Virus record (IMG/VR): IMGVR_UViG_3300032053_000557 | Span: 1 to 22,868 of that record | DNA length: 22,868 nucleotides | Direction: 5' to 3' (one strand) | Source: a virus | Shown here: one piece after another, positions 588-20,065 of the stretch | Position numbering within the stretch: the first letter of the stretch is position 1 | Layout: the number at the start of each line of letters is the position of its first letter | The notes under the pieces: model-generated | Seen by the model: the letters and a program-made list of their open reading frames with translations, nothing else | Told to the model about the DNA's origin: nothing | Databases searched by the model: none | Translations under genes and position numbers: made by a program

Positions 588-1148
588 ATGGGTATTTATG
601 TTTTTGCTGTTGTATCAAACGAATATCAAATTAGCGAAATATCGAATTTAAAACATAGTAATACGATAAAGATTGGATATTCAGAAAATTATGATAACGC
701 ATTAAAAAGAATTTTAGAGATGCAAACCGGATGTCCATACAAGATATGTCTCTTGTGTTGGAATGAAAAATTAAATAGAGAATATGAGAACATGTTTCAT
801 AAATTGTTAAATCCATTTCGTATAAAAATAACAAAGGGGCATGAATGGTTCAAGGAAAACATGCGATGGGAAAATGCCAAGATAAAATATTGCCGAAATG
901 GAAGTATATCAAAATGGACCAGACAAATTGAATGTCCTGTTTTTTGTTCTATAATCAAAATTATATCCAATTTGACCTTAAAACAAAAAAACGCCTTGTG
1001 TTCAATGATGGGATATGAATCTCTTGATATGGCATTTATGTTATTTTTCAATGCCAATTTAAAAACGTGGAAAAATTACGGCGAAACACAAGAAGAAACA
1101 ATCCAATTCCTTAAAAATTTACAGGGATTATTCATTATAAATCAGTGA
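588..1148 (+). CDS. T5orf172 / GIY-YIG-superfamily-like protein
   Basis: I start this 186-residue protein at ATG 588, one base after the upstream stop and behind GGGAG; the same frame is open further upstream inside the xis gene, but that part is a shadow. The N-terminal ~90 residues match the T5orf172/MUG113 pattern: GIYVF start, KIGYSEN (27-34), RILEMQTGCP (41-50), an E..FH segment (67-71) and GHEWFKE (84-90). Family knowledge: these domains belong to the GIY-YIG nuclease fold and occur in phage and mobile-element proteins; many are not shown to cut DNA. The C-terminal ~95 residues are unrecognised. The gene is clearly more AT-rich than its neighbours downstream, suggesting separate acquisition. 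Its stop codon lies inside a copy of the dispersed repeat, so its C-terminus may be repeat-derived. Confidence 0.72.
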   Translation: MGIYVFAVVSNEYQISEISNLKHSNTIKIGYSENYDNALKRILEMQTGCPYKICLLCWNEKLNREYENMFHKLLNPFRIKITKGHEWFKENMRWENAKIKYCRNGSISKWTRQIECPVFCSIIKIISNLTLKQKNALCSMMGYESLDMAFMLFFNANLKTWKNYGETQEETIQFLKNLQGLFIINQ

Positions 1149-1168
1149 AATCTGCGCAATCTGTGGTT
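1139..1168 (+). repeat. Dispersed repeat A, right half only
   Basis: This segment ends in AATCTGTGGTT (1158-1168), the right arm of the dispersed inverted repeat seen six more times in the window. It begins AAATCAGTGAAATCTG, and the TGA at 1146-1148 within it ends the T5orf172 gene. No left arm is present. A related short tandem (AATCCAA twice, 1203-1216) follows just downstream. Confidence 0.75.
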
Positions 1169-1274
1169 AAAAAATATCAGCATGGATGCTTAAAAAATCG
1201 ACAATCCAAAATCCAAAACAGAAAACGAGAAACAAGTCATCCGGTCGCAAAAAGAGGCAGCCGACTACTGCGGC

Positions 1275-1790
1275 GTGGAACCGCGGACCGTCCGCAACTG
1301 GGAACAAGAAGAAGTCCTCCGCGACAAGAGGGGCCGGTACGATATTGCAAAATTAGACGCCCATCGACTCAACGGTAATCCGGAAAAACCCAATGTCAAA
1401 CAGCAGGTCCTTTTCGCGGACCTCGATCTGAAAAGTAAAAAAAGCGAACTGGCCCAGTTGCAGATCAACATGCAGTCCGGAAAACTCATTCTCGTCGAAG
1501 AGATTGACCGGCAGCGGGTCAGCCGAATCATCGAGGTACGGCGTGTGCTGATGTCGCTGGTGCGAAAATTGCCGGCCAAGCTGCAGAACCTGAATGTCCA
1601 CCGGATGCAGGAGGTCTGCCGCGATGAGATTTATCGCTGCTTAGATATTTTCGCGGGGGAAAAATTAGAACCGTCCGAGGACCGCATCCGGGAACTGCTG
1701 GAGTATTACGGGAATTTGACCCCTGCGGAAAAAAGACAATTTAAAGTGAAACTCAATGACCGCCATCACCAACAAAAACCGAAGGAATAA
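1275..1790 (+). CDS. Terminase small subunit-like protein with N-terminal HTH (start uncertain)
   Basis: The frame is open from 1194 to the TAA at 1788-1790. An HTH of the Nu1/phage DNA-packaging type is visible: SQKEAADYCGVEPRTVRNWE, followed by a wing-like segment ending in RGRYDIAKLDAHRL. The rest is mostly helical, with a coiled-coil-like stretch (LDLKSKKSELAQLQINMQSGKL). Position directly before a GpA-type large subunit, with a 35-bp overlap, supports a small terminase that recognises packaging-site DNA. The only canonical start in the open frame is GTG 1275, in the middle of the HTH; starting there would delete its first helix. Upstream codons are all non-canonical, and the leader (1139-1216) is repeat sequence. 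The natural start may therefore have been lost, or a rare start such as ATC is used. Confidence 0.72.
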   Translation: MEPRTVRNWEQEEVLRDKRGRYDIAKLDAHRLNGNPEKPNVKQQVLFADLDLKSKKSELAQLQINMQSGKLILVEEIDRQRVSRIIEVRRVLMSLVRKLPAKLQNLNVHRMQEVCRDEIYRCLDIFAGEKLEPSEDRIRELLEYYGNLTPAEKRQFKVKLNDRHHQQKPKE

Positions 1791-3774
1791 CAGCCTTCTT
1801 CGGCGATCACAAGACAGGCTGTTCCAATGGCCGGACGGCCAGCCCCGTCAACAAACCCAGGGCGGGCCGCAGAATAAGCGGCGACAATCGGGCCCGCCGC
1901 GATGGACGGCGGCCGAACGCTCTGCCTGGAAGAGACCGCCGGACATCAGCACCAGCCGGCACGCGGACCTGTACCGCATCGTCGATGATACCTCGTCCGA
2001 ATCGGGACCGTGGAGAACAGACCGCACGCCCTATCTGCGCGCAATTATGGATGCCTTCGATGAACCTGACACGCAGGAAATTACCATCGTGGGCCCCGGT
2101 CGCTGCGGAAAAACCGAGGCCACGTTTAATATGATGGCCAAGCATGTCAATCTGACTCCGTCGCCGATTCTATACGCCACGGCGGTCGAGGAGATGATAC
2201 CCTCCACCGCCCGGGACCGGCTGGCGCCGATGTTTGAAAACAGCCCCGAATTAGCCAAACACCTGACGGGCCGCGACTGGGACCTGCAGGGCGCCGAGTT
2301 TCGATTTAAGACCATGCCAATGTATTTCGTAGGCCTTCGCTCCGCGATAAAATTATCCTCCCGGTCTATCGGCCTGCTAATTGTTACAGAGACGGACAAA
2401 TCGCCGGACACCCTGCAGACGGAAGGCAACCCGATACGCTTAGCCTTCCGCCGCGGCCAGACCTATCCGGATTTCAAAGCAATCTATGACTGCACGCCGA
2501 CGACGGCCGAGGGGTTTATCAATGTCTCATACCATCGCTCCGATATGCGTCGGTATTATATCCCATGCCCTCGCTGTAATGGATATCAGATTCCAAAATT
2601 CGGCAGACTGAAGGTTGACCCGCCGGACCTGCGGGACAAAGAAGTCATCATCAAAACCAATTGTGTCTATTATGAATGCGAGCATTGCAGCCATCATATT
2701 CCGCCTCAGCAGCGGGATGAAATCGTGGCAAAGGGCGTCTGGTGCCCTGAAGGATGCACGGTCAACCGCGATGGGACGTTATCGGGAAAACCCAAACGCG
2801 GGAAACTGCATGTCGGATTCTGGATTCCGCCTCTTGTCAGCCCGTGGCACAACTGGGCGGAGCTGCTGGCCGAGTGGTTCGAGCTGCAGCATGACCCGGT
2901 CAGCAAGAAAGGACGCCTGCAGGAATTCCGCAACCAGGTGATGGCCGAACTCTGGGAGGAAGAAGGGATATCCGTCAGTTATGAACATCTCAAAAAAAAT
3001 ATCGGTGCCAACCCGCGAGGATTTGTGCCGGCTGATTGCAAAATCCTTGTGGCGGGCGCCGACCCGCATAAAAACGACATAGGAGAATGGCGAATCGATT
3101 ATATGCTCAGGGCTTTTGCGCCGGGACCGCGAAGCTATGTGATTTCCGCAGGTTCCGTTGAAAGCTGGGAGATGCTGAAGGAAGAAATTCTTATCCCCTT
3201 CTTTGGACAATTGGCAGTGGACCCGGTGTTTGTCGATAGCGGCGCTGAGACGATGGAAATCTATGACTGGGCGATTCAATATCTCGGCGTCGTGTGGCCC
3301 ACCAAGGGGCTCGATTTTCTGCCGGAGATCATCCGCATCAAGCGGTGGAAACCGGAAGACGATAAAAAATGCCGGCGACGCCGCCGAAAAAACCTGGAGG
3401 GTCTGGAATGGATTGACATCGGAACGAATGAATTAAAGGACAAGGTCGCGGCGAACCTTGAAAAGGAGATCGGCGCTATCGGCAGCATAGAGTTTTATGC
3501 CGATATCCCGCCGCATATCCTTTCGCAGATTTGCGGAGAACATAAGGTCAAAGAACGCCGACGGGGACATATCGTCTCGATATGGAAACCCAAGACGGAA
3601 CACGGGGACGTGCATTTTTGGGACACATTGGTTTTAACCGAGGCGGCCGGGTATAAGAAAAAGGCATATCTGCTGCGGGATGAAAACGAGCCGGAACGAG
3701 TACCGGCGGCGATGCGGAATAGGCCGGAGAAAAAACGGATTGTGATGTCGGCGATGCCGAGACGGAGAATTTAA
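1756..3774 (+). CDS. terL: Terminase large subunit, lambda GpA family
   Basis: This 672-residue protein is the packaging motor ATPase and nuclease. A conserved GpA-like N-terminal ATPase region follows a basic, Arg/Gln-rich leader (1-60). The Walker A motif is GPGRCGKT (113-120). The Walker B position reads LLIVTETDKSP (about 207-217), where many relatives have DEVD, so the first acidic residue is Thr here. Two CxxC pairs, CPRC (271-274) and CEHC (308-311), form the zinc-knuckle-like insertion usual in GpA homologues. The nuclease half starts near VAGADPHKNDIGEWRID and includes FVDSGAET and a WPTKG segment. Length is close to lambda GpA (641). The gene overlaps the small-subunit frame by 35 bp, implying coupled translation; no good Shine-Dalgarno sequence is seen before ATG 1756. 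Confidence 0.95.
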   Translation: MTAITNKNRRNNSLLRRSQDRLFQWPDGQPRQQTQGGPQNKRRQSGPPRWTAAERSAWKRPPDISTSRHADLYRIVDDTSSESGPWRTDRTPYLRAIMDAFDEPDTQEITIVGPGRCGKTEATFNMMAKHVNLTPSPILYATAVEEMIPSTARDRLAPMFENSPELAKHLTGRDWDLQGAEFRFKTMPMYFVGLRSAIKLSSRSIGLLIVTETDKSPDTLQTEGNPIRLAFRRGQTYPDFKAIYDCTPTTAEGFINVSYHRSDMRRYYIPCPRCNGYQIPKFGRLKVDPPDLRDKEVIIKTNCVYYECEHCSHHIPPQQRDEIVAKGVWCPEGCTVNRDGTLSGKPKRGKLHVGFWIPPLVSPWHNWAELLAEWFELQHDPVSKKGRLQEFRNQVMAELWEEEGISVSYEHLKKNIGANPRGFVPADCKILVAGADPHKNDIGEWRIDYMLRAFAPGPRSYVISAGSVESWEMLKEEILIPFFGQLAVDPVFVDSGAETMEIYDWAIQYLGVVWPTKGLDFLPEIIRIKRWKPEDDKKCRRRRRKNLEGLEWIDIGTNELKDKVAANLEKEIGAIGSIEFYADIPPHILSQICGEHKVKERRRGHIVSIWKPKTEHGDVHFWDTLVLTEAAGYKKKAYLLRDENEPERVPAAMRNRPEKKRIVMSAMPRRRI

Positions 3775-3789
3775 AAACCACAAAAAAGG

Positions 3790-3862
3790 AACCACAGATT
3801 AACACAGATTTTCGCAGATAAATATTTTTAATAAATCAGTGGAATCGGTGAAATCTGTGGTT
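3790..3862 (+). repeat. Dispersed inverted repeat A, full copy
   Basis: Left arm AACCACAGATT (3790-3800) and right arm AATCTGTGGTT (3852-3862) are perfect 11-bp complements. Between them are further CACAGAT-like and ATCAGTG/ATCGGTG-like half-units, so the transcript could fold as a long imperfect hairpin. Positions 3803-3840 match 18589-18626 at 37 of 38 bases. The following ATG (3873) is 10 bp past the repeat and has no Shine-Dalgarno sequence. Confidence 0.85.
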
Positions 3863-3872
3863 ACAAAAAATT

Positions 3873-4208
3873 ATGAAAAAAGAGCAAAAGAAAAAAAATA
3901 AAGACATCATCGTCACCGGCGGATGTGTTGTGGTAAAAAATACCGGCGAGATATTGAGGGAACTAAAGAATACAGGAACACAAGAACTCAAGAACCCACG
4001 AACGCAAGAATTAAAAAAACGGGAGATGCCGAAACCGGCGGAGATTCCGGTCGGAATCCAATGTCGCAACTGTGGATGCAGACATTTTGACGTTACCCAT
4101 AAGATACCAATCTCCGGCAATCGTGAACGGCGATATATGAAATGTCGGTACTGTGGACTGATTCACCGCACAATTGAAATGGTAGAAAAAACCACATCTC
4201 ATAATTAA
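3873..4208 (+). CDS. Small zinc-ribbon protein
   Basis: The 111-residue product has a C-terminal zinc ribbon: CRNCGC (64-69) and CRYCG (91-95), separated by an Arg-rich segment (GNRERRYMK). This resembles Ogr/Delta-like or NrdR-like phage zinc ribbons that contact DNA or RNA polymerase. The N-terminal half is low in complexity: a Lys run, then two versions of a KNxxTQELK unit (about 32-48) encoded by GAACACAAGAACTCAAGAAC-like DNA, which looks like repeat sequence translated into protein. The gene follows repeat A without a visible ribosome-binding site and is followed at once by a 14-bp hairpin. Possible roles are late-gene regulator or terminase accessory factor; neither is shown by the sequence. 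Confidence 0.65.
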   Translation: MKKEQKKKNKDIIVTGGCVVVKNTGEILRELKNTGTQELKNPRTQELKKREMPKPAEIPVGIQCRNCGCRHFDVTHKIPISGNRERRYMKCRYCGLIHRTIEMVEKTTSHN

Positions 4209-4225
4209 AATTTTGTGATGAAAAC

Positions 4226-4257
4226 AAGATTTTATGCTACTGGTAGCATAAAATCTT
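4226..4257 (+). terminator. AT-rich 14-bp perfect hairpin after the zinc-ribbon gene
   Basis: Arms 4226-4239 and 4244-4257 are perfect complements (AAGATTTTATGCTA / TAGCATAAAATCTT) around a CTGG loop. It starts 17 bp after the stop at 4208 and is followed by TTAATTTTG, a poor but present U-rich tail. It could act as a weak or bidirectional terminator or an mRNA 3'-end stabiliser. Confidence 0.6.
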
Positions 4258-4336
4258 TAATTTTGGGCGGATTTTTGTTGCATTTTCCATTTCATGAGGG
4301 ATTACTTTAATATGACAAGTTCATAGTCCGGGTTTT

Positions 4337-4358
4337 GGTCAGGTTGATCAGCCTGACC
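4337..4358 (+). other. Short hairpin upstream of the main terminator
   Basis: GGTCAGG (4337-4343) pairs with CCTGACC (4352-4358) around an 8-nt loop containing the palindrome TGATCA. There is no T-tract. It sits 18 bp before the strong terminator at 4377-4421 and may be part of one structured RNA, for example an anti-terminator or processing site. That role is speculative; the hairpin is real in sequence. Confidence 0.4.
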
Positions 4359-4376
4359 GGACGAACAGGCAAAAAC

Positions 4377-4421
4377 AAGACGGCCGTCCAGGGCTGGACA
4401 CCCAGGCGGCCGTCTTTTTTT
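4377..4421 (+). terminator. Strong rho-independent terminator
   Basis: A perfect 10-bp GC-rich stem, AAGACGGCCG (4377-4386) with CGGCCGTCTT (4407-4416), is followed directly by a seven-T run (4415-4421). The 20-nt loop contains its own small inverted repeat (TCCAG..CTGGA). This is the clearest terminator in the window. It separates the terminase/zinc-ribbon group from the head genes, so the late genes downstream need read-through, antitermination or their own promoter. I could not identify a convincing promoter in 4422-4529. Confidence 0.85.
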
Positions 4422-4443
4422 GCGCCCGAAGAAAAAAAGTATT

Positions 4444-4509
4444 AACCACAGATTTCACAGATAAACACAGATTTTTTTAATCAGCGAAAATCAGTGTGAA
4501 TCGGTGGTT
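4444..4509 (+). repeat. Dispersed inverted repeat A, full copy
   Basis: Left arm AACCACAGATT (4444-4454) pairs with AATCGGTGGTT (4499-4509) with one mismatch. CACAGAT half-units recur inside. The copy lies between the terminator and the gpW-like gene, 20 bp before its ATG. Confidence 0.85.
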
Positions 4510-4529
4510 AAAAATTATGGTTGAAAATT

Positions 4530-4760
4530 ATGGTGGCAAATTATCAGACAATCATTGATGACATCAATACGGCAATCGCCGCCGGCGTCAGCAGTCCCGG
4601 CAAACTCACAACGCGAGACGGCAGAACCATCGAATACCGCGACCTCGCCGATCTTGTCGCCGCACGAAAAGAATATGCGTCCCTGCTGGCCCAGCAGACC
4701 AAAGGCGGCGGGAAACGATTCGGCATCATCCCAATGTCCCACGGTTCGGGGGTATTGTAA
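4530..4760 (+). CDS. Head-tail joining protein, gpW-like
   Basis: The product is 76 residues from ATG 4530; a TTG at 4521 in the same frame would add three residues. The pattern fits the gpW family: an N-terminal helix (YQTIIDDINTAIAAG), then the beta-hairpin segment GKLTTRDGRTIEYR, and a second helix (LADLVAARKEYASLLA). Family knowledge: gpW binds below the portal after packaging and is needed for tail attachment. Size (lambda gpW 68) and position just before the portal support the call. The gene ends one base before the portal ATG. No clear Shine-Dalgarno sequence precedes it; the repeat copy ends 20 bp upstream. Confidence 0.8.
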   Translation: MVANYQTIIDDINTAIAAGVSSPGKLTTRDGRTIEYRDLADLVAARKEYASLLAQQTKGGGKRFGIIPMSHGSGVL

Positions 4761-4761
4761 A

Positions 4762-6270
4762 ATGCAACAGGCGATTGTCAGACGCAGACAGACGGGACAA
4801 ATCCTCGACCAGTTCGGCAGGCCGTTTGAAAAATTAGCCGCCAGCTTCGCCGACAGCGCTGAAACCACACGCCTTAACTCCAGGCACTGGGCCCGGGCAA
4901 AGTCCGGAGATTTTAACGCACTCATCCAGGGAGACCTGGCCACGCTGCAGCGCCGCGCACGATATGAGATGCTCAATAACAGCTACGCCTCCGGCATCGC
5001 CGATACGCTGGCCTTCGACTTTATCGGCAGCGGACCGAAACCGCAGCTCAACAGCGGAAATGAACCCTTCGACCAGGAAGCCGAAGAGCGATTTCTCGAA
5101 TGGGCGGCACAATGTGATTTCGGCAGACAGATGGACCTCGCGGAAATCCTGCAGTCCCAGATGGCCCTTCAGCAATGCGAGGCGGGGGCATCCATCACCG
5201 TGTTGAAACGGGAGGACATACCCTACAATATCTCACTGCGACTCTTGTGCGTGGATATCGACCGGCTGGATTCCTCGGCCGGGATGATGAATACGGCCAT
5301 TAAAAACGGCATTGAATTTGATTCACTCGGCCGCCCCGTCGCCTACCACATACGAAAATATGACCCGCGGCTGGGATATACCCCCTACTCCATGCAATCC
5401 GAACGCATCATGGCCAGCGACGTCATACACCTTTATCGAATCAAGCGTCCCGGACAGATGCACGGCATACCGTGGTTTACGCCAGTATTGGATAAATTTG
5501 CGCAGTTGCGAAGATTCGTCGATGCCACGCTCGATTCGGCCGAGACGGCGGCCCAACCTTCGGCGGTCATATCCTGCAAAGACCCGGATTCCGAGGCCTC
5601 CCACAAAATACAGGAAAACGATGTCCTGGAATTTGAGCGCAATGCAATGCTCGTTCTGCCGGATAATTACGAGACGTTTCAGATCAAGCCCGAACATCCG
5701 GCGGCGACTTTTGAAATGTTCAAGGCGGAGATCATCAACGAGATCGCACGCTGCGTGCTGATGCCCTACAACGTCGCGGCAATGAACAGCGCCAAATACA
5801 ACTATGCCAGCGGCCGACTTGACCATCAGAAATATCACCGGTTCATCGCCGCCATCCGGACATGGGGAGCAAGGCGATTTTTGAACCGTGTGTTTGCCGA
5901 GTGGCTATCCGAGGGCTATCTGCTCGATGGATTTTTTACGACGCGACCCACATTCGAACAGGTGATGAAGGCCATCCGAACCATCAAATGGCAATGGGAC
6001 GGATTCGAACACGTGGACCCGGTCAAAGAAGCTGATTCGCAGAATACCCGCCTGCAAAAATCAGGCACTACAACTTTGGCCGCCGAATATGCCAAAGACG
6101 GCAAGGACTGGCGGCGCGAAACGCGACAGCGGCTTAAAGAGATATTCAGTATTTTGGAGGACGCCGACGCCGCGGGCGTGCCGAGGGAGATTGCCATGAA
6201 ATTGTTTTTTGGTGAACAAAAACAGGAAATTCAAAAAACTTATCAGGTCAATGAAGACACTGCGGATTAG
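4762..6270 (+). CDS. Portal protein, lambda gpB family
   Basis: The 502-residue product starts at ATG 4762, just after the gpW stop; the longer frame back to 4555 runs through gpW and is rejected. Lambda-type portal features are visible: an N-terminal region with RLNSRHW and DLATLQRRARYEMLNNSYASGIADTLA, LDQ/F-type core text, RLLCVDIDRLD, HLYRIKRPGQMHGIPWFTPVL (cut here as key words) and the C-terminal wing with MNSAKYNYASGRLDHQ and WEFF-like Trp segments. Family knowledge: twelve copies form the DNA entry ring and the docking site for terminase and connector. Length is close to lambda gpB (533). The protease-capsid gene starts 10 bp after its stop, so the two are probably co-translated. Confidence 0.94.
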   Translation: MQQAIVRRRQTGQILDQFGRPFEKLAASFADSAETTRLNSRHWARAKSGDFNALIQGDLATLQRRARYEMLNNSYASGIADTLAFDFIGSGPKPQLNSGNEPFDQEAEERFLEWAAQCDFGRQMDLAEILQSQMALQQCEAGASITVLKREDIPYNISLRLLCVDIDRLDSSAGMMNTAIKNGIEFDSLGRPVAYHIRKYDPRLGYTPYSMQSERIMASDVIHLYRIKRPGQMHGIPWFTPVLDKFAQLRRFVDATLDSAETAAQPSAVISCKDPDSEASHKIQENDVLEFERNAMLVLPDNYETFQIKPEHPAATFEMFKAEIINEIARCVLMPYNVAAMNSAKYNYASGRLDHQKYHRFIAAIRTWGARRFLNRVFAEWLSEGYLLDGFFTTRPTFEQVMKAIRTIKWQWDGFEHVDPVKEADSQNTRLQKSGTTTLAAEYAKDGKDWRRETRQRLKEIFSILEDADAAGVPREIAMKLFFGEQKQEIQKTYQVNEDTAD

Positions 6271-6280
6271 GAGTTTTGCG

Positions 6281-8422: not shown

Positions 8423-8431
8423 AACTATGAC

Positions 8432-8456
8432 GGCGGAGGAACGCTGTTCTTCCGCC
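8432..8456 (+). other. GC-rich hairpin after the capsid gene
   Basis: GGCGGAGGAAC (8432-8442) pairs with GTTCTTCCGCC (8446-8456) with one G-U pair and a 3-nt loop. There is no T-tract, so it is more likely an mRNA-stabilising or attenuating hairpin than a full terminator. It starts 9 bp after the capsid stop. Confidence 0.5.
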
Positions 8457-8526
8457 ATCCTTTCAGGATTTGAAAATCAGTTTTGTAACCGTTAAAAAAT
8501 AGAATTTTTTTACAGGAGATAACACA

Positions 8527-9273: not shown

Positions 9274-9296
9274 CCAGCATATAGTCCCCCTATAGA

Positions 9297-9331: not shown

Positions 9332-9348
9332 CCATATTTTGGCGGAAT

Positions 9349-9374
9349 AAATCCGAAATCCGAAATCCGAAATG
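9349..9374 (+). repeat. AAATCCG tandem repeat running into a start codon
   Basis: Three 7-bp units AAATCCG (9349-9369) are followed by AAATG, so the fourth unit supplies the ATG at 9372. A degenerate relative (AATCCAA twice) is at 1203-1216 in front of the small-terminase frame. Confidence 0.75.
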
Positions 9375-9578
9375 AAAAAAATGAACACACTGGCGGAACA
9401 TATCGCGGAGCTGGAAGAGACATTAAACCTGATGACGGCGAACGGACATTTCGCCGACGAGGAACTCAACGCCGCGGGAAAGATGCTGGACGATGTCATT
9501 GCCCTGCTGTGGAAACGACAACGGGAACTTTCGAGTTCATTGAATATTGAAAAAGACAATGAAGGGGTCGCAATATGA
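9372..9578 (+). CDS. Small helical hypothetical protein
   Basis: The 68-residue product is acidic and helical, with heptad-like text (LAEHIAELEETLNLM and MLDDVIALLWKRQREL), so a short coiled coil is likely. I do not recognise a family. It has no Shine-Dalgarno sequence: the AAATCCG repeat runs into the ATG. It overlaps the next gene by 4 bp (ATGA), which implies translational coupling with the membrane protein downstream. It could be a lysis or connector accessory factor, but nothing in the sequence shows this. Confidence 0.6.
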   Translation: MKKMNTLAEHIAELEETLNLMTANGHFADEELNAAGKMLDDVIALLWKRQRELSSSLNIEKDNEGVAI

Positions 9579-9997
9579 ACGGACAGGATAATCAGGGCGG
9601 CGCAAAGCAACCGCAAATTTTGGTTCCTCTCGATGAGTTTGTCAGACAGATCGGACGGGAGGCTGGGACCGTAGCGGCAAAAATGGCCATTGAGGACCAT
9701 AGCCAGAACTGTCCGGCAAGGATAAAGATTGAGACCTGCGGAAGAATCGCACGACACCTTCCCCACGTCATAACGGCGACATTATCATCAATCGTCACCG
9801 TTACGGCGGTCCTGGGCGTCGTGTCCCCAAAACTCTACGCGAAATTCGAGGAAAAGATAAAAATTCTCCAGACAATCAAACAGGAGATTGAAAAAACGCA
9901 ATCGAGCGGGCCGGCACAAACACCGTCTGCATTGAATCTGTCGAATCCCTTGGGGACAAGTGGCTTAGCCACAAGTGCAACGGAAAAACCAAAATGA
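9575..9997 (+). CDS. Small membrane protein, holin-like
   Basis: The 140-residue product has one clear hydrophobic stretch (about 65-84: VITATLSSIVTVTAVLGVV) after a soluble N-terminal part, then a charged helix (KLYAKFEEKIKILQTIKQE, 87-105) and a flexible Ser/Pro/Ala tail. Single-span proteins of this size near the centre of late clusters are often holins or lysis accessory proteins, but family motifs are absent, so this is inference. The last codons (TSGLATS) include a GGCTTAGCC palindrome flanked by ACAAGT direct repeats, so the C-terminal tail may be repeat-derived. It overlaps both neighbours by 4 bp. Confidence 0.6.
   Translation: MNGQDNQGGAKQPQILVPLDEFVRQIGREAGTVAAKMAIEDHSQNCPARIKIETCGRIARHLPHVITATLSSIVTVTAVLGVVSPKLYAKFEEKIKILQTIKQEIEKTQSSGPAQTPSALNLSNPLGTSGLATSATEKPK
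9956..9976 (+). repeat. GGCTTAGCC palindrome inside a coding region
   Basis: GGCTTAGCC (9962-9970) is flanked by ACAAGT direct repeats (9956-9961 and 9971-9976). It is in frame in the holin-like gene, encoding Thr-Ser-Gly-Leu-Ala-Thr-Ser. The same 9-bp core occurs at 14587, 14636, 16616 and 16631. Confidence 0.6.
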
Positions 9998-10465: not shown

Positions 10466-10496
10466 AACCACGGATTAACACGGATAGATGCGGATT
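10466..10496 (+). repeat. Dispersed repeat A, diverged left half
   Basis: AACCACGGATT followed by two more CGGAT units gives a left half in which CACAGAT has become CACGGAT. No right arm is present. A complete copy begins 16 bp downstream. Confidence 0.7.
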
Positions 10497-10511
10497 AAAA
10501 TAAAAACAAGG

Positions 10512-10583
10512 AACCACAGATTACACAGATGACACTGATTTGTTAAAAAAAATAATCTGTGAAAATCTGTGAAATCTGTGGTT
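10512..10583 (+). repeat. Dispersed inverted repeat A, full copy
   Basis: Left arm AACCACAGATT (10512-10522) and right arm AATCTGTGGTT (10573-10583) are perfect complements. Inner units are CACAGAT, CACTGAT, AATCTGTGAAAATCTGTG. An extra AATCTGTGG fragment follows at about 10596-10604. The next gene's ribosome-binding site (GAGGTG) begins just beyond. Confidence 0.88.
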
Positions 10584-10623
10584 TTAAAAAAGTGAAATCT
10601 GTGGCAAAAAAATGAGGTGAAAA

Positions 10624-13368: not shown

Positions 13369-13386
13369 AATCGAAAGGATTTTGCG

Positions 13387-14175
13387 ATGAAAAAGATGAT
13401 TTTGGCGGCTTTATTTGCGGCCCTTGGCGGCTTGATTTTGGCGACGGCGGACCCGAACGAATTCGACGTGATCGGGCCGCAGTATCAGGGGTATACAAAG
13501 ACATACTTTCAACTGCAATCCGCGTCGGACGCGAAAAAATGGGACACAAATTCGTCTGCCATGAACGCAAATTGCACATTCGCTCACGCGGCCATCGACC
13601 TGACGGCGGACACGGCGTTTAAGAAGTTCTACGGCAATATCCCGGCGACGCTTCCCACCGGAATTTATACGGTCCCGATTTTCGGATCGGCGGACGCGAC
13701 GGCAGATTATGGCGATCTGTTGATATCCTGCAACTGGGGGCAATGGAACAAATCGCGGCGGAAATGGACGTGGTTTGACCCCCAATATGGACCGGCGTCG
13801 CAGAAAAAGACGCTGAGCATCATCCTTGATATCACGGGCAAGATTAAAATCCTCGCCACGGCCGGCCAGCTCAGCGACCCGATCAACATCCAGTTCGGAA
13901 GCGCTGTGGAATTGACAGCCTGGGACAATATTAATAAAGTGTTTTCCGCCACACCGGCCTGGGCCGATACGCTGATTTCCGTGGTCTACAATCCCTATAC
14001 CGGCTCCTATAACCTTAACCAACCGACCAAGGCGAATGGCTCCGCGTGGGATATCGGGCAGGTCTGGATGAAGGTGTTCGGCACCGAAAACACCGACCCC
14101 AACGAAATCACAGATGCGGTGCAATACTATTGGTCGGGCAGCCGGGTGATCGAGGGTTCTTTCCGCCACCTGTAA
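13387..14175 (+). CDS. Hypothetical protein with signal peptide
   Basis: The 262-residue product starts at ATG 13387 behind AAAGGA. It has a classic leader: MKKM, a hydrophobic core (ILAALFAALGGLILA) and an ATA-D cleavage-like site near residue 21. The mature part is rich in Trp, Asn and aromatic residues (WNKSRRKWTWFDPQYG near 120-135; VYNPYTGSYNLNQ) and looks beta-structured. I do not recognise a family. It sits 18 bp after the large appendage gene, probably in the same transcript, and both have export-like N-termini, unusual amid virion genes. It may be a lysogenic conversion or surface protein, or a structural protein whose N-terminus only mimics a leader. A 252-codon reverse-strand frame through it is a shadow. 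Confidence 0.65.
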   Translation: MKKMILAALFAALGGLILATADPNEFDVIGPQYQGYTKTYFQLQSASDAKKWDTNSSAMNANCTFAHAAIDLTADTAFKKFYGNIPATLPTGIYTVPIFGSADATADYGDLLISCNWGQWNKSRRKWTWFDPQYGPASQKKTLSIILDITGKIKILATAGQLSDPINIQFGSAVELTAWDNINKVFSATPAWADTLISVVYNPYTGSYNLNQPTKANGSAWDIGQVWMKVFGTENTDPNEITDAVQYYWSGSRVIEGSFRHL

Positions 14176-14203
14176 CCGGAATCAAGGAACAGGAAAATAA
14201 ATA

Positions 14204-14548
14204 ATGTCCACTGAAATCGAGACAGCGGAACAAAAGGCCGCCCTGCTGCAGCTTGCAGTATGGGGAGAGACCGTGGTGTATATCCCCGCCGTCGGCGCCG
14301 AACGCGGCATCAAGGCCATCGTGGAACGCAACGGCATCGGCCGCGTGGCCGGGACAAAACAAGGCACGGGGCCGGAGCTGGCGATATCCGTAGCCAATTC
14401 CATCTCAGACGGGATCAGCTCGGCGGAATTCAAAAAAAACCAGGACAAAATACGATTGGCGGTCAATTTCGGAGAGACCCCGCAGGACCGTCTGCTGGTG
14501 AAAATTTTAGACCAGGACGCCGGGATGCTTGTGTTGGAAGTGCGGTAG
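14204..14548 (+). CDS. Head-tail joining protein (FII-like)
   Basis: The 114-residue product has the usual layout of small phage head-tail joiners: WGETVVYIPAVGAERGIKAIVERNG (N-terminal strands, quoted in part), then ELAISVANSISDGISSAEF, KIRLAVNFGETPQDRLLVKILDQDAGMLVLEVR (C-terminal strands). Position also supports it: it precedes the gpZ-like gene as FII precedes Z in lambda. Length is close to lambda gpFII (117). It has a GGAA-type site upstream. The cargo cassette lies between it and the capsid cement gene, where lambda has no comparable insertion. Confidence 0.68.
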   Translation: MSTEIETAEQKAALLQLAVWGETVVYIPAVGAERGIKAIVERNGIGRVAGTKQGTGPELAISVANSISDGISSAEFKKNQDKIRLAVNFGETPQDRLLVKILDQDAGMLVLEVR

Positions 14549-14563
14549 TGAAGAAACAATATT

Positions 14564-14649
14564 AACCACAGATTGCGCAGATTGATGGCTTAGCCATTGG
14601 CGCGGATTCATAAAAAATAATCTGTGAAAATTGATGGCTTAGCCATCAA
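14564..14649 (+). repeat. Dispersed repeat A carrying two GGCTTAGCC palindromes
   Basis: A left arm AACCACAGATT (14564-14574) and AATCTGTG (14619-14626) mark repeat A, but the right end is cut off. Two copies of the other family are nested inside: ATGGCTTAGCCAT (14585-14597) and TTGATGGCTTAGCCATCAA (14631-14649), the latter with 9-bp perfect arms. The second palindrome occupies the place where the right arm should end. The gpZ gene begins 13 bp later. Confidence 0.8.
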
Positions 14650-14661
14650 AAGGTAAAATTA

Positions 14662-15414
14662 ATGAATCAGCAGTTTTTTGTACAGGCGGACACAAGACAG
14701 ATACAGGCGCTGATTTTAGCGATGCACGGGCTCAGCCCGGACAAATTAGACCGGGTGCTGGTGCGGGCGGAGAACCGGACCATGAGAATGGCGAGAACGG
14801 CGATTGTCCGAACGATGAAAGAGAAAAGCACCATCAAACATGTCACGGCGATCCGCAAGCGGGTGATCCCTTATGAAGCCCCAAATGCCGCCGCAGGCGC
14901 TGCGATCCGCATCAGCCATACACGGATCAACCTCATCGAATTCGCGGCAAAGCAGATCAAGAAACGCGGCGGCGGCGTGCAGTATCAGGCCGGAATAGGA
15001 TCAGGTACCAGGATGGCGGTCAGCGCATTTATCACAGGGGGCTTTGGCGGAACGAAAGGGGTTTTCATCCGCAGACGTGGATTATGGAAAAAATGGGAGG
15101 GGGGCTATTGGAGACCAAAGAAAAAACAGAAGTATCCCAGACCTCCCGACATTAAGCACTGGCCATATACGGAAATGGAGAAGGTGGGCGATTACGAAGA
15201 ACTTCCCGGTCCACTGAAAATTAGTGGCAACGGTCCCCAGCGGACGCCGCGATACCCCATCGATATGCTCCGCGGGCCATCCCTTTGGCGAATGTTCACA
15301 GGGATGGAAAATATGGTGGATGAGATTATCGTGGATGCCAAACAGAAATTGAGCAAGCACGTGATGGACCAGGTCAGGCTGATCGTCGAACACCGGAAAG
15401 GGGCGGTGGCATGA
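14662..15414 (+). CDS. Minor tail protein Z (gpZ-like)
   Basis: This 250-residue protein follows the gpZ family pattern. An N-terminal helix bundle holds RALDRTxxR-like text (VLVRAENRTMRMARTAIVRTM), then a segment with IKHVTAIRKRVIPYEA, then RINLIEFAAKQ, a basic linker (KKRGGG), GVFIRRRG, and the C-terminal marker PIDMLRGPSLWRMF (family consensus PIxxLxGPSxxxMF). Family knowledge: gpZ is needed to form infectious tail-head joints in lambda. It is slightly longer than lambda gpZ (192), with a Lys/Pro/Trp-rich insert at about 140-180. It overlaps the next start by 4 bp (ATGA), which couples translation to the tail terminator gene. The ribosome-binding site is AAAAGG just after the repeat. Confidence 0.9.
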   Translation: MNQQFFVQADTRQIQALILAMHGLSPDKLDRVLVRAENRTMRMARTAIVRTMKEKSTIKHVTAIRKRVIPYEAPNAAAGAAIRISHTRINLIEFAAKQIKKRGGGVQYQAGIGSGTRMAVSAFITGGFGGTKGVFIRRRGLWKKWEGGYWRPKKKQKYPRPPDIKHWPYTEMEKVGDYEELPGPLKISGNGPQRTPRYPIDMLRGPSLWRMFTGMENMVDEIIVDAKQKLSKHVMDQVRLIVEHRKGAVA

Positions 15415-16613
15415 GTACACTCTTAGAAGCCTGCGTTGCGCACTACAAAATGAATGATTGCGCACGGAACAAAACCGTCGCCGACAGCCGGGAAACCTCC
15501 AATGGTACGGCACAACGAAATACGAATCTGCTGTCCGTGGACGGCAAGGTCGGCGGGGCGCTTCAGTTTGACGGTTCGTCTGATTATGTGGATACCAATA
15601 AAACCTTTCAGGACACTTTCAGGGATAGTTTTACGATGAGTTTATGGGTAAAACCTACGGATGGACGACCACCGGAAATACAACGTTTTTTATGCCACGA
15701 ATACGATGACGAGAGTACTCCATACGGAATAAATGATGTCAGCATTTCACTTGGGATAGATGGTAGAATTTTCGCGACCTATTTTGCAAAAGACAAATCT
15801 TTATATGCTTATTTTGAAGATGTTTTACCAAATGGCGTCAATCCTTGGATAATGATTACCGTCGTAATCACTAAACTTGCACCTTCTATTGCAAAATTAG
15901 AACTCTATAGAAACGGCATTATGCAGCATTACATTGACGATACAGGCATAAGGTCAGACATCGAAATGACGGATTATACAAATCCTGTTTCGCTTCCTTT
16001 GGGAGCAGAGATTTATGATTATGGTAACGGTCCGATTGTCAACCAATTTTTCTCCGGTCTTCTCGATAACGTTATGATCTTTAACCGGGCGCTGACGGCG
16101 GCGGAGATCACATATCTGTATAACGCAGGCGCCGGGTCGGAAACACTGGAAGATGTACCGGTGCTGGAAAACATCGCGGAAAATATCAAGCAGACCATTA
16201 ACGGCATCACCATCGCCGCGGGATATAAACAGACGCTAACGGCACGGCGGTGCAAATCCTACAAAAACGCTCCCCCTGCGGAGGGAGAAGTTCTCATTGC
16301 GCAGGATGAAACACCGGAGGAAACCGACGCCCAAGCCGTCGGATGCTGCGATATAGACCAGAAATTTTATCTGATTGTGGACGTGATGGGTGAAGACACC
16401 GAGACAAATTTGCTCGATACCCGACGCAATCAGATTTACGCGGACATAAAAAAGGCCCTGATGGCGGACCATACCCGGGGACACTATGCCATCGATACGC
16501 ACGTCCTGCCGCAGGCAGATTTCCAAGTAGAAAATGAAACAGAATCGGTTACCGGCGTGGTCGCGCCGGTGGTCGTGACCTATCGAACTCAATATGATAA
16601 CCCTTATGCGTAA
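15411..16613 (+). CDS. LamG lectin domain fused to tail terminator (gpU-like) domain
   Basis: The product has 400 residues in one uninterrupted frame from ATG 15411, overlapping gpZ's stop by 4 bp. Residues about 5-238 form a concanavalin-like (LamG) domain: VAHYKMND, GKVGGALQFDGSSDYVD, FTMSLWVKP, and the closing FSGLLDNVMIFNRALTAAEITYLYNAG (quoted in part). Residues about 244-400 (VLENIAENIKQTING to TYRTQYDNPYA) have the size and layout of a tail terminator/completion protein, expected at this place before the tube gene. Family knowledge: terminators form a ring at the head-proximal end of the tail. A lectin fused there would be displayed at the neck. The middle of the LamG part is visibly more AT-rich than the ends, suggesting domain acquisition. 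LamG is firm; the terminator assignment rests on position and size. Confidence 0.76.
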   Translation: MSTLLEACVAHYKMNDCARNKTVADSRETSNGTAQRNTNLLSVDGKVGGALQFDGSSDYVDTNKTFQDTFRDSFTMSLWVKPTDGRPPEIQRFLCHEYDDESTPYGINDVSISLGIDGRIFATYFAKDKSLYAYFEDVLPNGVNPWIMITVVITKLAPSIAKLELYRNGIMQHYIDDTGIRSDIEMTDYTNPVSLPLGAEIYDYGNGPIVNQFFSGLLDNVMIFNRALTAAEITYLYNAGAGSETLEDVPVLENIAENIKQTINGITIAAGYKQTLTARRCKSYKNAPPAEGEVLIAQDETPEETDAQAVGCCDIDQKFYLIVDVMGEDTETNLLDTRRNQIYADIKKALMADHTRGHYAIDTHVLPQADFQVENETESVTGVVAPVVVTYRTQYDNPYA

Positions 16614-16641
16614 ATGGCTAAGCCATAAAGGGCTAAGCCCT
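16614..16641 (+). repeat. Two adjacent GGCTAAGCC palindromes
   Basis: ATGGCTAAGCCAT (16614-16626) begins directly after the TAA of the terminator gene, and AGGGCTAAGCCCT (16629-16641) follows. Both share the 9-bp core with the copies at 9962, 14587 and 14636, but in the GGCTAAGCC orientation. The tail tube gene's ribosome-binding site comes next. Confidence 0.75.
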
Positions 16642-16660
16642 AAATTAAAGGAGACACAAA

Positions 16661-17587
16661 ATGACCATGAGCGATACACTATTAGAACGAACCTACGTTA
16701 TCAAGGTATTAAGCGAAGCCGCCAAAGGGACCTACGAAACACCGACGCTGGACCTGCTGTGCTTTGACCTGAAATGCGACCCGACCACGGAGAACGAGGC
16801 GCGGCAGGGGACGGGCAAATATGAGGCCGACAATAACGTCGGGGTATTCACATCGGAAAAAGGAAAATGCAGCTTTAGAACGGAACTCCTCGGCAGCGGG
16901 GCGGGCGCCTTAAACGCGGCGATATCGGCCTTGCTGCAGGCGTGCAACTTCAAGCTGACCACAAGCACCTATACCGCGCCGACTTCCAGCTACACCGACA
17001 AAAAAACAATCTCCATCGCGGCGTATCAAAGCGGAAAACTGAAAACGATGTCGGGCTGTTCCGGCACCTGCGTTATTTCCTGCGACGCGATGGGGAAGCC
17101 CGCCTCGATGCAGTTTGATTTTACCGGACGATGGCTCGGCGAAGCCGCCGCCGCCCTGCCGACATGGACCCCCTCGACACAAAAGCCAATGAAATTTACG
17201 GCTTTTACCATTGACGCGGCGCCGGCGAAGATATCTCGCTATGAATTAGATTTGGGGATTGCCGTGGAACCCCAGCCCAACCCCAACGGCACAGGCGGCG
17301 TGACAGCCTATCTTGCCTATTCCGAATCCATCATGGTCAGTATGGACCCGGAATCCCAGTTGATCGCGACCTGGGACGTTGATAGCCTGCGAAAGGCACA
17401 GACGACGCTGGCCCTGGTGGCCACCTTCAGCAACGCGACCGACAAACTCATCATCACGGTCGCCAAGGGGGAAATTCTCGAAAACCCGGCCGCGGCGCGC
17501 AACAAACTTTTAGTCAATCAGGTCAAATGCCGCGCGCTGCTGACTTCCGGAGACGACAATGTTTCAATGGTCGTGTCGGCGGCGTAA
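16661..17587 (+). CDS. Major tail tube protein
   Basis: The 308-residue product starts at ATG 16661 behind AAAGGAG; a second Met at residue 3 is possible. It fits the phage tail tube family (Phage_tube_2-like): an N-terminal strand with LLCFDLKCDPTTENEARQGTGKYE, GVFTSEKGKCSFRTELLGSG, a repeated middle, a SMQFDFTGRWLG segment (about 145-156), and a C-terminal half of similar architecture ending in VKCRALLTSGDDNVSMV (quoted in part). Family knowledge: hexameric rings stack to form the tube. Its place after the terminator and before the chaperones is exactly the lambda V position. The strong ribosome-binding site fits the high copy number needed. Confidence 0.88.
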   Translation: MTMSDTLLERTYVIKVLSEAAKGTYETPTLDLLCFDLKCDPTTENEARQGTGKYEADNNVGVFTSEKGKCSFRTELLGSGAGALNAAISALLQACNFKLTTSTYTAPTSSYTDKKTISIAAYQSGKLKTMSGCSGTCVISCDAMGKPASMQFDFTGRWLGEAAAALPTWTPSTQKPMKFTAFTIDAAPAKISRYELDLGIAVEPQPNPNGTGGVTAYLAYSESIMVSMDPESQLIATWDVDSLRKAQTTLALVATFSNATDKLIITVAKGEILENPAAARNKLLVNQVKCRALLTSGDDNVSMVVSAA

Positions 17588-17594
17588 TGAAAAC

Positions 17595-17627
17595 AGTTTT
17601 GAGTTGGTAGTTCTTAGTTTTGAGTTG
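17595..17627 (+). repeat. Short direct repeat AGTTTTGAGTTG
   Basis: AGTTTTGAGTTG occurs at 17595-17606 and again at 17616-17627, 9 bp apart, in the gap between the tube and the next gene. It has no hairpin or promoter character. It is a fourth type of simple repeat in this window. Confidence 0.6.
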
Positions 17628-17661
17628 TGAAAAAACAGTATAAAAGAAAGCAAGAAAAAAT

Positions 17662-17886
17662 ATGAACACTCACACTGAAAAGCCGACGCCGGATGTTATC
17701 GTCAAGGCGTTCAAAAAACACCACGGCGGGCATGAGAATACCGACCCGCGGGAGATCGTGAGATTGTTTAGGGAATTGCCGGCGGAAACACAGGAGCGAT
17801 ATCTGACGGCCGTGAAAACCACAAAACCACAAAAAGAAAGCGAGGCAACAAGTGCCGATAATCTGCGACCCAACACAAACGTTTAA
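17662..17886 (+). CDS. Small hypothetical protein before the tail chaperone
   Basis: This 74-residue product is charged and mostly helical (DVIVKAFKKHHGG; REIVRLFRELPAETQERYLTAV). I do not recognise a family. It lies between tail tube and chaperone G and overlaps the next start (GTG 17852) by 35 bp. The ribosome-binding site is weak (AAGAAAAAAT). The overlap and position suggest a tail assembly accessory protein translated in coupling with G. It could also be a spurious upstream ORF, but its composition resembles the neighbouring genes. Confidence 0.55.
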   Translation: MNTHTEKPTPDVIVKAFKKHHGGHENTDPREIVRLFRELPAETQERYLTAVKTTKPQKESEATSADNLRPNTNV

Positions 17887-18268
17887 GGTGATACTGGCGG
17901 TGGATGAAAACAAAGACCCGCAGCCGGCGTTTTTGTGCCGAACCCTGACGATGCGGCAATGGCGCGAGGCGGCCAAGCTGCATGACGCCGCGTATCGGGC
18001 GGATACCAAAGACCCGGACGTGGTGGCCGACGCCGTCCTGGCCGCGATAAGACCCCTTATCGTTGGCTGGGAAAATGTCTCCGACCCCGACAAGAAAGAA
18101 ATTCCGTTCGCCTTTGAGAAAATAGAGGACGTGCTGATTATCGACGAGGCGTTTGAATTGCTGAGCAAGGCCTGGAAGGGCCAGAAACCGACGGTGGACG
18201 AACAAAAAAAATCAGACTCGCCGTCGGGTACAAATACGGCAGGCCCTGCGGCGACTGCCCCGGAATAA
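17852..18268 (+). CDS. Tail assembly chaperone, G-like
   Basis: The 138-residue product starts at GTG 17852 with GAGGC upstream. It begins with strands (TFKVILAVDENKD, QPAFLCRTLTMRQWREAAKL) and continues with helices (DVVADAVLAAIRPLIVGWENV, IEDVLIIDEAFELLSKAWKG), ending in a Ser/Thr/Pro/Ala tail after the slippery site. Size and position between the tube and tape measure genes match lambda gpG (140 residues). Family knowledge: G and its frameshifted G-T product keep the tape measure soluble and recruit tube subunits. Sequence similarity to lambda G itself is not obvious to me; the call rests on synteny, size and the frameshift site. Confidence 0.75.
   Translation: MPIICDPTQTFKVILAVDENKDPQPAFLCRTLTMRQWREAAKLHDAAYRADTKDPDVVADAVLAAIRPLIVGWENVSDPDKKEIPFAFEKIEDVLIIDEAFELLSKAWKGQKPTVDEQKKSDSPSGTNTAGPAATAPE
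18205..18211 (+). promoter_or_regulatory. A-AAA-AAA slippery heptamer for -1 programmed frameshift
   Basis: In the G frame the codons are CAA-AAA-AAA-TCA (18203-18214), giving the heptamer A AAA AAA at 18205-18211. A one-base slip back makes the next codon ATC (18211-18213) and enters the T frame, open to the stop at 18556-18558. The G frame itself stops at 18266-18268. Heptamer and frames are seen directly; the frameshift itself is inferred from the lambda G/T precedent. Confidence 0.82.
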
Positions 18269-18558
18269 AAAACTGCAAAGATAAACCGACCGGGCAATTG
18301 CCCCTGGTGATGGAATGCACCCGTTGCGGAGGACACGGCTGCCAGGAATGCGATGTCGGCAGAATCGAAATCACAGGCTGCCCTTTGGAATTGATTACAC
18401 CGGATATCTGGGAGCTGCTCGAACTGGCTGAGCTATATAAAAAAGGCCTGCCGCCGGTTGACGGCGGCGTATTAGACCAGGCGGCGGACTTTGTCACCGC
18501 CTGCCGGTTTGTCTGGAGCGAAGAAAACATCCATAAAAAACGATTGGGAATTGACTAA
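18211..18558 (+). CDS. Tail assembly chaperone T extension, reached by -1 frameshift from G
   Basis: This 115-codon frame follows the slippery site. Fused to the first 120 codons of G it gives a protein of about 235 residues. The frame is open from 18157 but has no ATG, GTG or TTG before TTG 18298, which has no ribosome-binding site. Real coding begins earlier: CGDCPG and a nearby NC pair (18250-18280) are followed by CTRCGG and CQEC, then GCP, a Cys-rich zinc-binding-like segment. The C-terminal half is helical (DIWELLELAELYKKG; LDQAADFVTACRFVW). Family knowledge: in lambda the T part binds the tape measure. A Cys cluster is not part of lambda T and seems particular to this lineage. Confidence 0.75.
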   Translation: MRLAVGYKYGRPCGDCPGIKNCKDKPTGQLPLVMECTRCGGHGCQECDVGRIEITGCPLELITPDIWELLELAELYKKGLPPVDGGVLDQAADFVTACRFVWSEENIHKKRLGID

Positions 18559-18576
18559 GAGGTTTAAATAAATATT

Positions 18577-18648
18577 AACCACAGATTGCACAGATTTTCA
18601 CAGATAAATATTTTTAATAAATCAGTATAATCAGCGAAATCTGTGGTT
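18577..18648 (+). repeat. Dispersed inverted repeat A, full copy
   Basis: Left arm AACCACAGATT (18577-18587) and right arm AATCTGTGGTT (18638-18648) are perfect complements. The inner 38 bp (18589-18626) match 3803-3840 except for one base. The ribosome-binding site of the tape measure gene (GAGG) begins 8 bp after the right arm. Confidence 0.88.
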
Positions 18649-18665
18649 TTAAAAAAGAGGTAAAT

Positions 18666-20030
18666 ATGGGAACGCCTTACGCGGTTGACATCATCTTTCA
18701 GGCCATCGACCAGTCCCAGCGCGGGACGACATCATTTTTGCGACAGATCAAACAAGTCGATTCCGCGATTAAGAGAACCACGGCCGGCGGCGGCATGGGC
18801 GGTGCGGCGGCCGGCGGTCCAACAAGTTCGGTGGATCAGTTGTTTGCCGGGCTGTCGTCGAGAATGGCGGTCGTGACGGCGATGCGGGTGGGCATCGACC
18901 TGGTGACGGTCGGATTCAAAATGTGGCAATATGAGTCGATGAAACTAAAGGCCCCCTTAGACGAGGTCCTGAAAAAACATATCGAAATCAACGAGGCCGT
19001 GGAAAACATAGTTAGGGACATCCCGCTTATCGGCCGTGCGGCGGCACGGATGATGGAGGCGATCAGCAATACCGCGGGCCTAAAACACATCGTCAGTCTG
19101 CTGGACGAGGTGAGAAAATCCACGGAAAGAACATTTGAAAGTATTCGGAAGGGTATCTATGATATCCGGCGGATGCAGCTTGAAAACATCGGCGCTCCCG
19201 GCTCCGCAATTAAGGCCGTCGATATTGAGGCACAACGGGCCGGCCGGAAAGAAGAATTGGCCGCGCTCGAGAAAGAAGTGGAGAAGGGCAGAGAGGCGGT
19301 ACGATTAAAACGGAAAATGGAGGGCGAGGGAGAACCCCGTCCACCCCTTTCTCCATTGGGTTTGTACCCGGCATATTATAATCCTGCGGCGGCGGCCCAG
19401 GCGAGAGATCGAACCGAATCCGAACGCGCCAAAAAAGAAATTCTTGGGCCGGCACAGGAGGCGCTGCGGAAAAAACAGGCGGAGGATGCACAACGCAGAA
19501 TAGAGGAAGATAAAGCATTAGCCCGAATGCGGACGGAGGAAGGCGAGCAACGACTGGCGGTCCAGCAAAAAGAGATGGAACGGCGAAACAAGGAGCGAGG
19601 GGACGAACTTTCATGGGAACGGGACCAGCGGCAGCGAGTCGAAGAGCTGGAGGCCTCGCAGATTAAGGACAAGGTGGAGCGCGAAAAAAAGGCCATCGAG
19701 ATCAAGTATAGATATGAGATTCAAAAGGCCCGCGAGGCCTTCCATGATACAAAACTTCTCGAAGAGCAGAGGCGATTAGAGCTGGCGGGGGTTAAGCCGG
19801 ACGAAATAAAGGGCCGTTCACATCCGTCGGGTAAAACGCCGGCGGAGGATGTACGGTTTATGTCGGGGGCGTATGGATACAACGCGGGATACGACCCAGC
19901 GGTGCAGACGGCGAATCACACCAAGACAATGGCGGAAGCAATCAATAGAATGAATCGCAACATCGAACAATTACTGCGACACGCACAGGGCCAGCCCACC
20001 ACACAATTGCGATTCAGTAATTTCGGATAA
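18666..20030 (+). CDS. Tape measure protein (short)
   Basis: The 454-residue product lies straight after the chaperones. The N-terminal part reads VDIIFQAIDQSQRGTTSFLRQI, then a Gly-rich linker, then helices with a hydrophobic stretch (MAVVTAMRVGIDLVTVGF, about 60-82). Residues about 195-370 are a long, highly charged coiled coil with two breaks (a Pro-rich piece near 224-245). The C-terminus ends in MAEAINRMNRNIEQLLRHA, like many tape measure ends. It is short compared with lambda gpH (853). With about 1.5 Angstrom of tail per residue it would predict a tail below about 70 nm. It has a GAGG ribosome-binding site just behind repeat A. The fold evidence is general, but synteny is strong. Confidence 0.8.
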   Translation: MGTPYAVDIIFQAIDQSQRGTTSFLRQIKQVDSAIKRTTAGGGMGGAAAGGPTSSVDQLFAGLSSRMAVVTAMRVGIDLVTVGFKMWQYESMKLKAPLDEVLKKHIEINEAVENIVRDIPLIGRAAARMMEAISNTAGLKHIVSLLDEVRKSTERTFESIRKGIYDIRRMQLENIGAPGSAIKAVDIEAQRAGRKEELAALEKEVEKGREAVRLKRKMEGEGEPRPPLSPLGLYPAYYNPAAAAQARDRTESERAKKEILGPAQEALRKKQAEDAQRRIEEDKALARMRTEEGEQRLAVQQKEMERRNKERGDELSWERDQRQRVEELEASQIKDKVEREKKAIEIKYRYEIQKAREAFHDTKLLEEQRRLELAGVKPDEIKGRSHPSGKTPAEDVRFMSGAYGYNAGYDPAVQTANHTKTMAEAINRMNRNIEQLLRHAQGQPTTQLRFSNFG

Positions 20031-20034
20031 CAGG

Positions 20035-20065
20035 AACCACAGATTTCACAGATTAGCGCTGATTT
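20035..20065 (+). repeat. Dispersed repeat A, left half
   Basis: AACCACAGATTTCACAGATT is followed by AGCGCTGATTT; the right arm is absent. It lies 4 bp after the tape measure stop and 19 bp before the next ATG, which has no clear ribosome-binding site (only AAAAAAAGAC). Confidence 0.75.

Follow-up and report, generated by a model that had tools for sequence, protein, structure and literature searches.

The short inverted repeats dispersed through the gaps of this virus contig are most plausibly, with a probability of roughly 0.6, copies or part-copies of REP-like extragenic host repeats that reside mainly in bacterial chromosomes and were acquired by the phage. The window, that is, the whole stretch of DNA analysed, is virus contig IMGVR_UViG_3300032053_000557, 22,868 nucleotides long, with all genes on the + strand. 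We suggest that the phage would have obtained the copies while it was integrated in its host, which was probably one of the Planctomycetota, and that the copies would have persisted in its gaps because gaps after stop codons tolerate insertions. Their spread may have proceeded by copying of short DNA, through either a putative enzyme or a recombination route. Overall, the interpretation offered in the first-pass annotation is partly supported.

All eight repeat places located by that annotation are present, four as full hairpins and four as half copies. Allowing up to two mismatches, AACCACAGATT occurs 18 times in the window against 6.0 +/- 2.4 in shuffled sequence (0 of 100 shuffles reach 18), and the CACAGAT units described within the repeats are confirmed by 23 exact occurrences of CACAGAT/ATCTGTG where about 1.7 are expected. 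The copies, and two genes at the start of the window, are as follows.

3-338: C-terminus of the integrase
540-1148: ORF of the MUG113/T5orf172 (GIY-YIG-like) protein, adjoining the integrase; its TGA stop codon lies inside repeat E1
1138-1168, + strand: E1, right half copy (AAATCAGTGAAATCTGCGCAATCTGTGGTT), including the TGA stop (1146-1148) of ORF 540-1148
3790-3862, + strand: E2, full hairpin, with the terminase stop 15 nt before it and the ATG at 3873 10 nt after it; RNA fold z -5.9
4444-4509, + strand: E3, full hairpin preceding a small gene (ATG 4530) and the portal gene; RNA fold z -4.7
10466-10495, + strand: E4, left half copy with the spelling CACGGATT; it may be the outer arm of a nested composite that includes E5
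10512-10583, + strand: E5, full hairpin, part of the composite 10474-10604; RNA fold z -6.2
10592-10606, + strand: additional right-arm unit GTGAAATCTGTGGCA, which may be the composite's outer right arm
14564-14650, + strand: E6, left half copy into which the palindrome ATGGCTTAGCCAT intrudes; another palindrome lies at the end of E6
18577-18648, + strand: E7, full hairpin between the stop at 18558 and the ATG at 18666; RNA fold z -3.5
20035-20064, + strand: E8, left half copy, with the stop at 20030 4 nt before it and the ATG at 20085 20 nt after it

The inner part of E7 is 90% identical to E2, and the full copies have the terminal inverted repeats by which MITEs are recognised (AACCACAGATT...AATCTGTGGTT), the half copies being without one end. 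The 11-mer ends that the copies had been said to share are indeed there, but the deeper unit is a tandem unit of 9-10 bp and not an 11-mer end. Their constant orientation, also claimed, is weak as evidence, because the element is near-palindromic and all genes lie on the + strand, although in the copies at 1138, 3790, 4444 and 18577 the right arm retains a spelling of its own (ATCAGT/ATCAGC). Confinement to gaps and gene ends holds for all eight, whose midpoints fall in gaps making up 6.5% of the gene-bearing stretch (p ~3e-10). The extragenic location characteristic of REP/REPIN elements is found in the bacterial copies as well, which lie mostly outside crude ORF calls (26 of 122 inside, against 88% of random points).

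The genes of the window comprise the integrase C-terminus, an HTH protein, the MUG113/T5orf172 protein, the small and large terminase subunits and the portal, followed by a head protein with protease, a head decoration protein, a neck protein and then structural genes. As it carries an integrase, we infer that the phage is temperate. Apart from a sister contig (L026), which is 99.7% identical along 11.4 kb with zero indels, the best terminase match comes from a genome of the class Phycisphaerae (44% identity), and the best described phage is below 30%. Since that match falls in the Phycisphaerae, a planctomycete (Planctomycetota) host is likely. A search for the exact host with the 26-mer common to E2 and E7 matched no genome in the bacterial/archaeal collection; the true host would be expected to carry the phage spelling with TATTAACC/AAGGAACC flanks.

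Several other features of the contig were seen in passing. At 1149-1275 no ATG is available to start the small terminase ORF; its first usable start is the GTG at 1275, in a reading frame open from about 1194. The 321-bp gap preceding the portal module holds both a 32-bp near-perfect palindrome (4226-4257) and, at about 4378-4422, a G+C hairpin that resembles a terminator and has a T run. A second dispersed palindrome, (A)TGGCTWAGCCA(T), occurs at 9953-9975, 14583-14599, 14632-14650 and 16612-16642; one copy splits E6, another falls in the 3' end of ORF 9575-9997, and one pairs in tandem with GGGCTAAGCCC. A tandem gap repeat with a 7-nt unit, AATCCGAAATCCGAAATCC, and its variant AATCCAAAATCC are found at 9350-9374 and 1201-1220, the former sequence recurring in a Planctomycetota locus (L054). 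Further small-unit repeats, TTTTGAGTTGTGA and CAAGAACTCAAGAA, occupy 17600-17640 and 3962-4013. Of these, TTTTGAGTTGTGA recurs in L208 and in two viral loci (L016 and L022), and CAAGAACTCAAGAA lies inside ORF 3873-4208. Upstream of the point corresponding to the window start, at 4768-4847 of the sister contig, a CACAGAT unit is combined with the CCACAGAG spelling (CTCTGTGAACTCTGTGGC).

The repeat family extends far beyond this phage. A gapped pattern for the full hairpin gave at least 120 matches in the bacterial/archaeal genome collection, isolates included, so contamination of metagenome bins does not explain the distribution. Going by record titles among the matches listed, repeats with identical ends occur in at least 10 phyla, the carriers including Chloroflexi, Planctomycetota, Cyanobacteria, Treponema, Aminicenantes, Solimonas, Verrucomicrobia, Bacteroidales and Prevotella, Nitrospinota and Hydrogenedentota. 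Half-sites number from 2 to 380 per genome across 16 carriers (the richest five having 380, 248, 193, 90 and 62; reversed-pattern control 0), the highest load being 380 in 2.2 Mb. Within the class Phycisphaerae the repeat is carried by 70 of 298 genomes (control 0); it is in none of 5,426 E. coli genomes and in 16 stretches of viral contigs. The phage itself, with 8 half-sites per 22.9 kb, has a higher density than every bacterium examined, and amplification inside the phage is therefore possible.

Across this range the repeats are built from a basic unit, CRCNGAT(T), with a period of 9-10 bp (9 bp in 221 cases and 10 bp in 29). A full copy has about three units before an A/T-rich centre and three after it, the latter inverted and ending in GGTT; half copies are common. 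Spelling is specific to the genome. Phycisphaerae genomes use AGCC/AACCGC/AACCACGG; examples of the dialects are AGCCACAGATT, AACCGCAGATT, AACCACGGATT and TTAGACGCNGATT. Similarity of the inner part is 0.47 within genomes versus 0.25 between them, where the largest permuted difference is 0.05. Against this variation C1, C3, G5 and A6 of the unit are nearly fixed: in third units, picked with no requirement for an exact match, mismatches at positions 1-7 number 6, 28, 11, 30, 3, 3 and 24 (chi-square p 2e-10), concentrating at positions 2, 4 and the last T. Such invariance suggests a conserved factor recognising the unit, which would then resemble a recognised site rather than a decayed master copy.

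One reading of this pattern is that the repeats are arrays of putative binding sites for a conserved host protein, with units spaced by about one helical turn and useful to host and phage alike. The spacing and the near-fixed positions are as it would predict, but the patchy occurrence within a single class, the absence from E. coli and the fact that relatives spell the first unit differently make it quite unlikely. A broader proposal, which we hold only tentatively, is that a unit-built superfamily (CRCNGATT, period 9-10 bp, lineage dialects) spreads through phyla and phages by a form of copying that is neither RAYT-driven nor classical transposition, its recognition positions being readable from the unit. 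Two known kinds of element were compared and rejected: the DnaA box (TTAACCACA against TTATCCACA), because the one mismatch falls at an important position and roughly half of the copies start with GGAACC, and CRISPR, since the arms are palindromic and there are no spacers.

Comparison of related phages and of orthologous gaps shows how the copies change over time. The first-pass annotation had proposed that the same copies at the same places in distant relatives would point to vertical inheritance; relatives at 36-44% terminase identity instead have no repeats or other dialects. A Phycisphaerae-class genome (L208/L209) contains a colinear prophage-like region (terminase 44% overall, portal 47%) with zero repeat arrays. 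Five viral relatives have 36-41% terminase identity, and three of them (L258, L259 and L261) carry the other dialects CGCAGATT, CACGGATT and TTAGACGCNGATT; in one relative a full TTAGACGCTGATT hairpin stands directly before the small-terminase gene, the place of E1 in the window. The 54 remaining, more distant terminase relatives have no arrays. A search by portal protein gave no closer phage relative than the sister contig, which, being 99.7% identical, shows no repeat difference from the window, so that movement was not caught in the act. As colinear relatives have either no repeats or other dialects in their gaps, the copies are evidently acquired anew and exchanged for others instead of being passed down at fixed sites. 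Further, 24 of 298 Phycisphaerae genomes contain the TTAGACGC dialect of the related phages, and 19 of the 24 also carry AACCACAGATT (p 2e-9); uptake by each phage of its own host's repeats would predict such a pattern. At 3401-3600 of L261, the ORF upstream of the repeat ends on a stop codon formed by the repeat's first bases (TTAGACGC), and the small terminase ORF reads through a half copy in frame at its N-terminus.

Turnover is also seen in bacterial chromosomes. In the Bacteroides ilvE-trmB gap, B. finegoldii has the phage-type dialect (of the AATCTGTGG kind), two other genomes (L228 and L241) have a TTAGGCACGGATT...AATCCGTGCCTAA element of the CACGGATT dialect, and 28 of 30 gaps read, some just 3-4 bp long, have neither dialect. 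By eye, the B. finegoldii copy occupies the spot of a terminator-like hairpin in its relatives. Orthologous gaps in Laspinema hold one or two copies with altered flanks. In both genera the gaps differ by more than the repeat itself. A precise insertion site with defined ends was not obtained, and the flanks of the bacterial copies listed show no constant target duplication.

The first-pass annotation placed the copies usually within 25 bp of a start codon; this is true for six of the eight (8-20 nt), but the bacterial copies point to the stop codon instead. Among 142 element ends facing a long ORF, the median distance to the stop codon is 16 nt, and 51% fall in the interval from -5 to +20 nt around it; with crude gene calls, divergent gaps are underrepresented among the bacterial copies (11 of 87 versus 86 of 350, p 0.02). 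Seven of the eight phage copies overlap a stop, follow one by at most 18 nt or follow such a copy, and the gaps of the phage are too short for association with starts and with stops to be separated there.

Such locations could also be explained by functional RNA hairpins in the phage operon, acting for example in RNase III processing or mRNA stabilisation between cistrons and kept by selection. The four full copies do fold strongly as RNA (z -3.5 to -6.2, -17 to -33 kcal/mol), they sit in intercistronic gaps, the bacterial copies lie near stop codons, and the B. finegoldii replacement of a terminator-like hairpin fits as well. However, four of the eight phage copies are halves that cannot form a hairpin (E1 z +0.15), the colinear relative is entirely without repeats, and an element's own arm matches no better than the arms of other elements in seven of eight bacterial genome groups (p 0.036 in the eighth). 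With arms that do not covary and half copies that cannot fold, a required RNA structure is not supported, and comparison with described RNA families (Rfam) gave only two microRNA-precursor matches, far under gathering scores. We consider this explanation unlikely, and the suggested RNA element acting on translation is not favoured, the bacterial signal being at stops.

Returning to acquired host repeats, nested copies add to the evidence that such elements move. The composite 10474-10604, made up of the E4 half copy, the E5 hairpin and the extra right unit, has an 82% alike counterpart in viral contig L009, which by blastn shares nothing else with the window and in which the composite lies at a different gene junction. 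L009 contains a tandem duplication; in one of its copies the outer element encloses an inner one, which is missing from the other copy. In the window E6 is itself split by another small palindrome, ATGGCTTAGCCAT, which recurs elsewhere in the window. Nesting, turnover and dialects together support mobility of the repeat. Two of the possibilities raised in the first-pass annotation are accordingly borne out: a mobile miniature repeat, being gained or lost at orthologous gaps, different between related phages and found nested, and a host repeat acquired by the phage, the family being abundant in bacterial genomes.

Searches for a mobilising enzyme were negative. REP/REPIN elements are palindromes tagged with GTAG and CGTC (PMC3733652) and associated with RAYTs (PMC3116915), and the repeats resemble them in being extragenic, palindromic, abundant and placed at gene ends, so movement by RAYT transposases was considered. 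The REP-associated tyrosine transposase named as a possible mover finds no backing: the 19-mer pattern (up to 3 mismatches) occurs within about 1.5 kb of none of 30 Y1_Tnp loci, one of which has a lone 11-mer nearby, and the family is missing from 4 of 16 repeat carriers. RAYT-family (PF01797) genes are present in 265 of 298 Phycisphaerae genomes (89%) regardless of the repeat. By eye, about 120 elements among the matches listed end in AACC/GGTT and show no consistent GTAG/CGTC tag, CGTC/GTAG flanks appearing in one Planctomycetota genome only. Movement by RAYTs is thus very improbable. Across 120 loci no neighbouring gene family recurs that would suggest a mover or parent transposon; a distant parent is possible.

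That no mobiliser was found agrees with passive capture, in which host repeats enter by illegitimate or homologous recombination and the number of units shifts through replication slippage and gene conversion, with no transposition. Half copies, tandem copies and blurred ends, with flanks extending differently in each genome, would follow, and gene conversion could also yield genome-specific spelling. Yet identical ends in ten phyla, nested copies and scatter over unrelated gene ends are hard to reach in this way, and passive capture alone struggles because recombination needs a pre-existing copy. We therefore regard it as rather unlikely.

The family is very widespread and apparently without a name in the literature searched: its sequence strings were in no relevant paper of the open-access literature, and an earlier description is possible. 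That short non-coding DNA should be near-identical in phages and across ten phyla is unexpected; as descent should not preserve non-coding sequence over such distances, a widespread process of transfer or copying is implied, for which temperate phages are plausible carriers. CRCNGATT provides a sequence handle for finding the protein responsible, and matching phages with their hosts could be made easier by the dialects.

Among known systems, the repeats are REP-like by behaviour and not REP by membership tests, because they have neither a consistent GTAG/CGTC tag nor a link to RAYTs. With REP/REPIN elements they share short, extragenic, palindromic sequences or inverted doublets in high number, occurrence both singly and in tandem clusters, families specific to a genome, presence in several phyla and location at gene ends; they differ, besides tag and RAYT, in having 9-10 bp tandem units in each arm and the same ends in at least 10 phyla. 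MITEs, which are non-autonomous transposons with terminal inverted repeats, are likewise dispersed, nested and devoid of coding capacity with inverted ends, whereas the present repeats have no visible target duplication, blurred ends, common half copies and no parent transposon found. The small dispersed repeats of cyanobacteria, or STRRs, are very short, intergenic, made of small tandem units and mutually nested, all of which holds here as well; set apart by description, STRRs are lineage-specific heptamers or short hairpins, while the present unit is common to Cyanobacteria, Bacteroidota and phages. The DNA uptake sequences of Neisseria and Haemophilus also consist of a fixed short word, often in inverted pairs right after genes, a likeness that extends to the repeats described here, but the latter are far fewer in copies, form tandem arrays with degenerate positions, and span unrelated phyla and phages.
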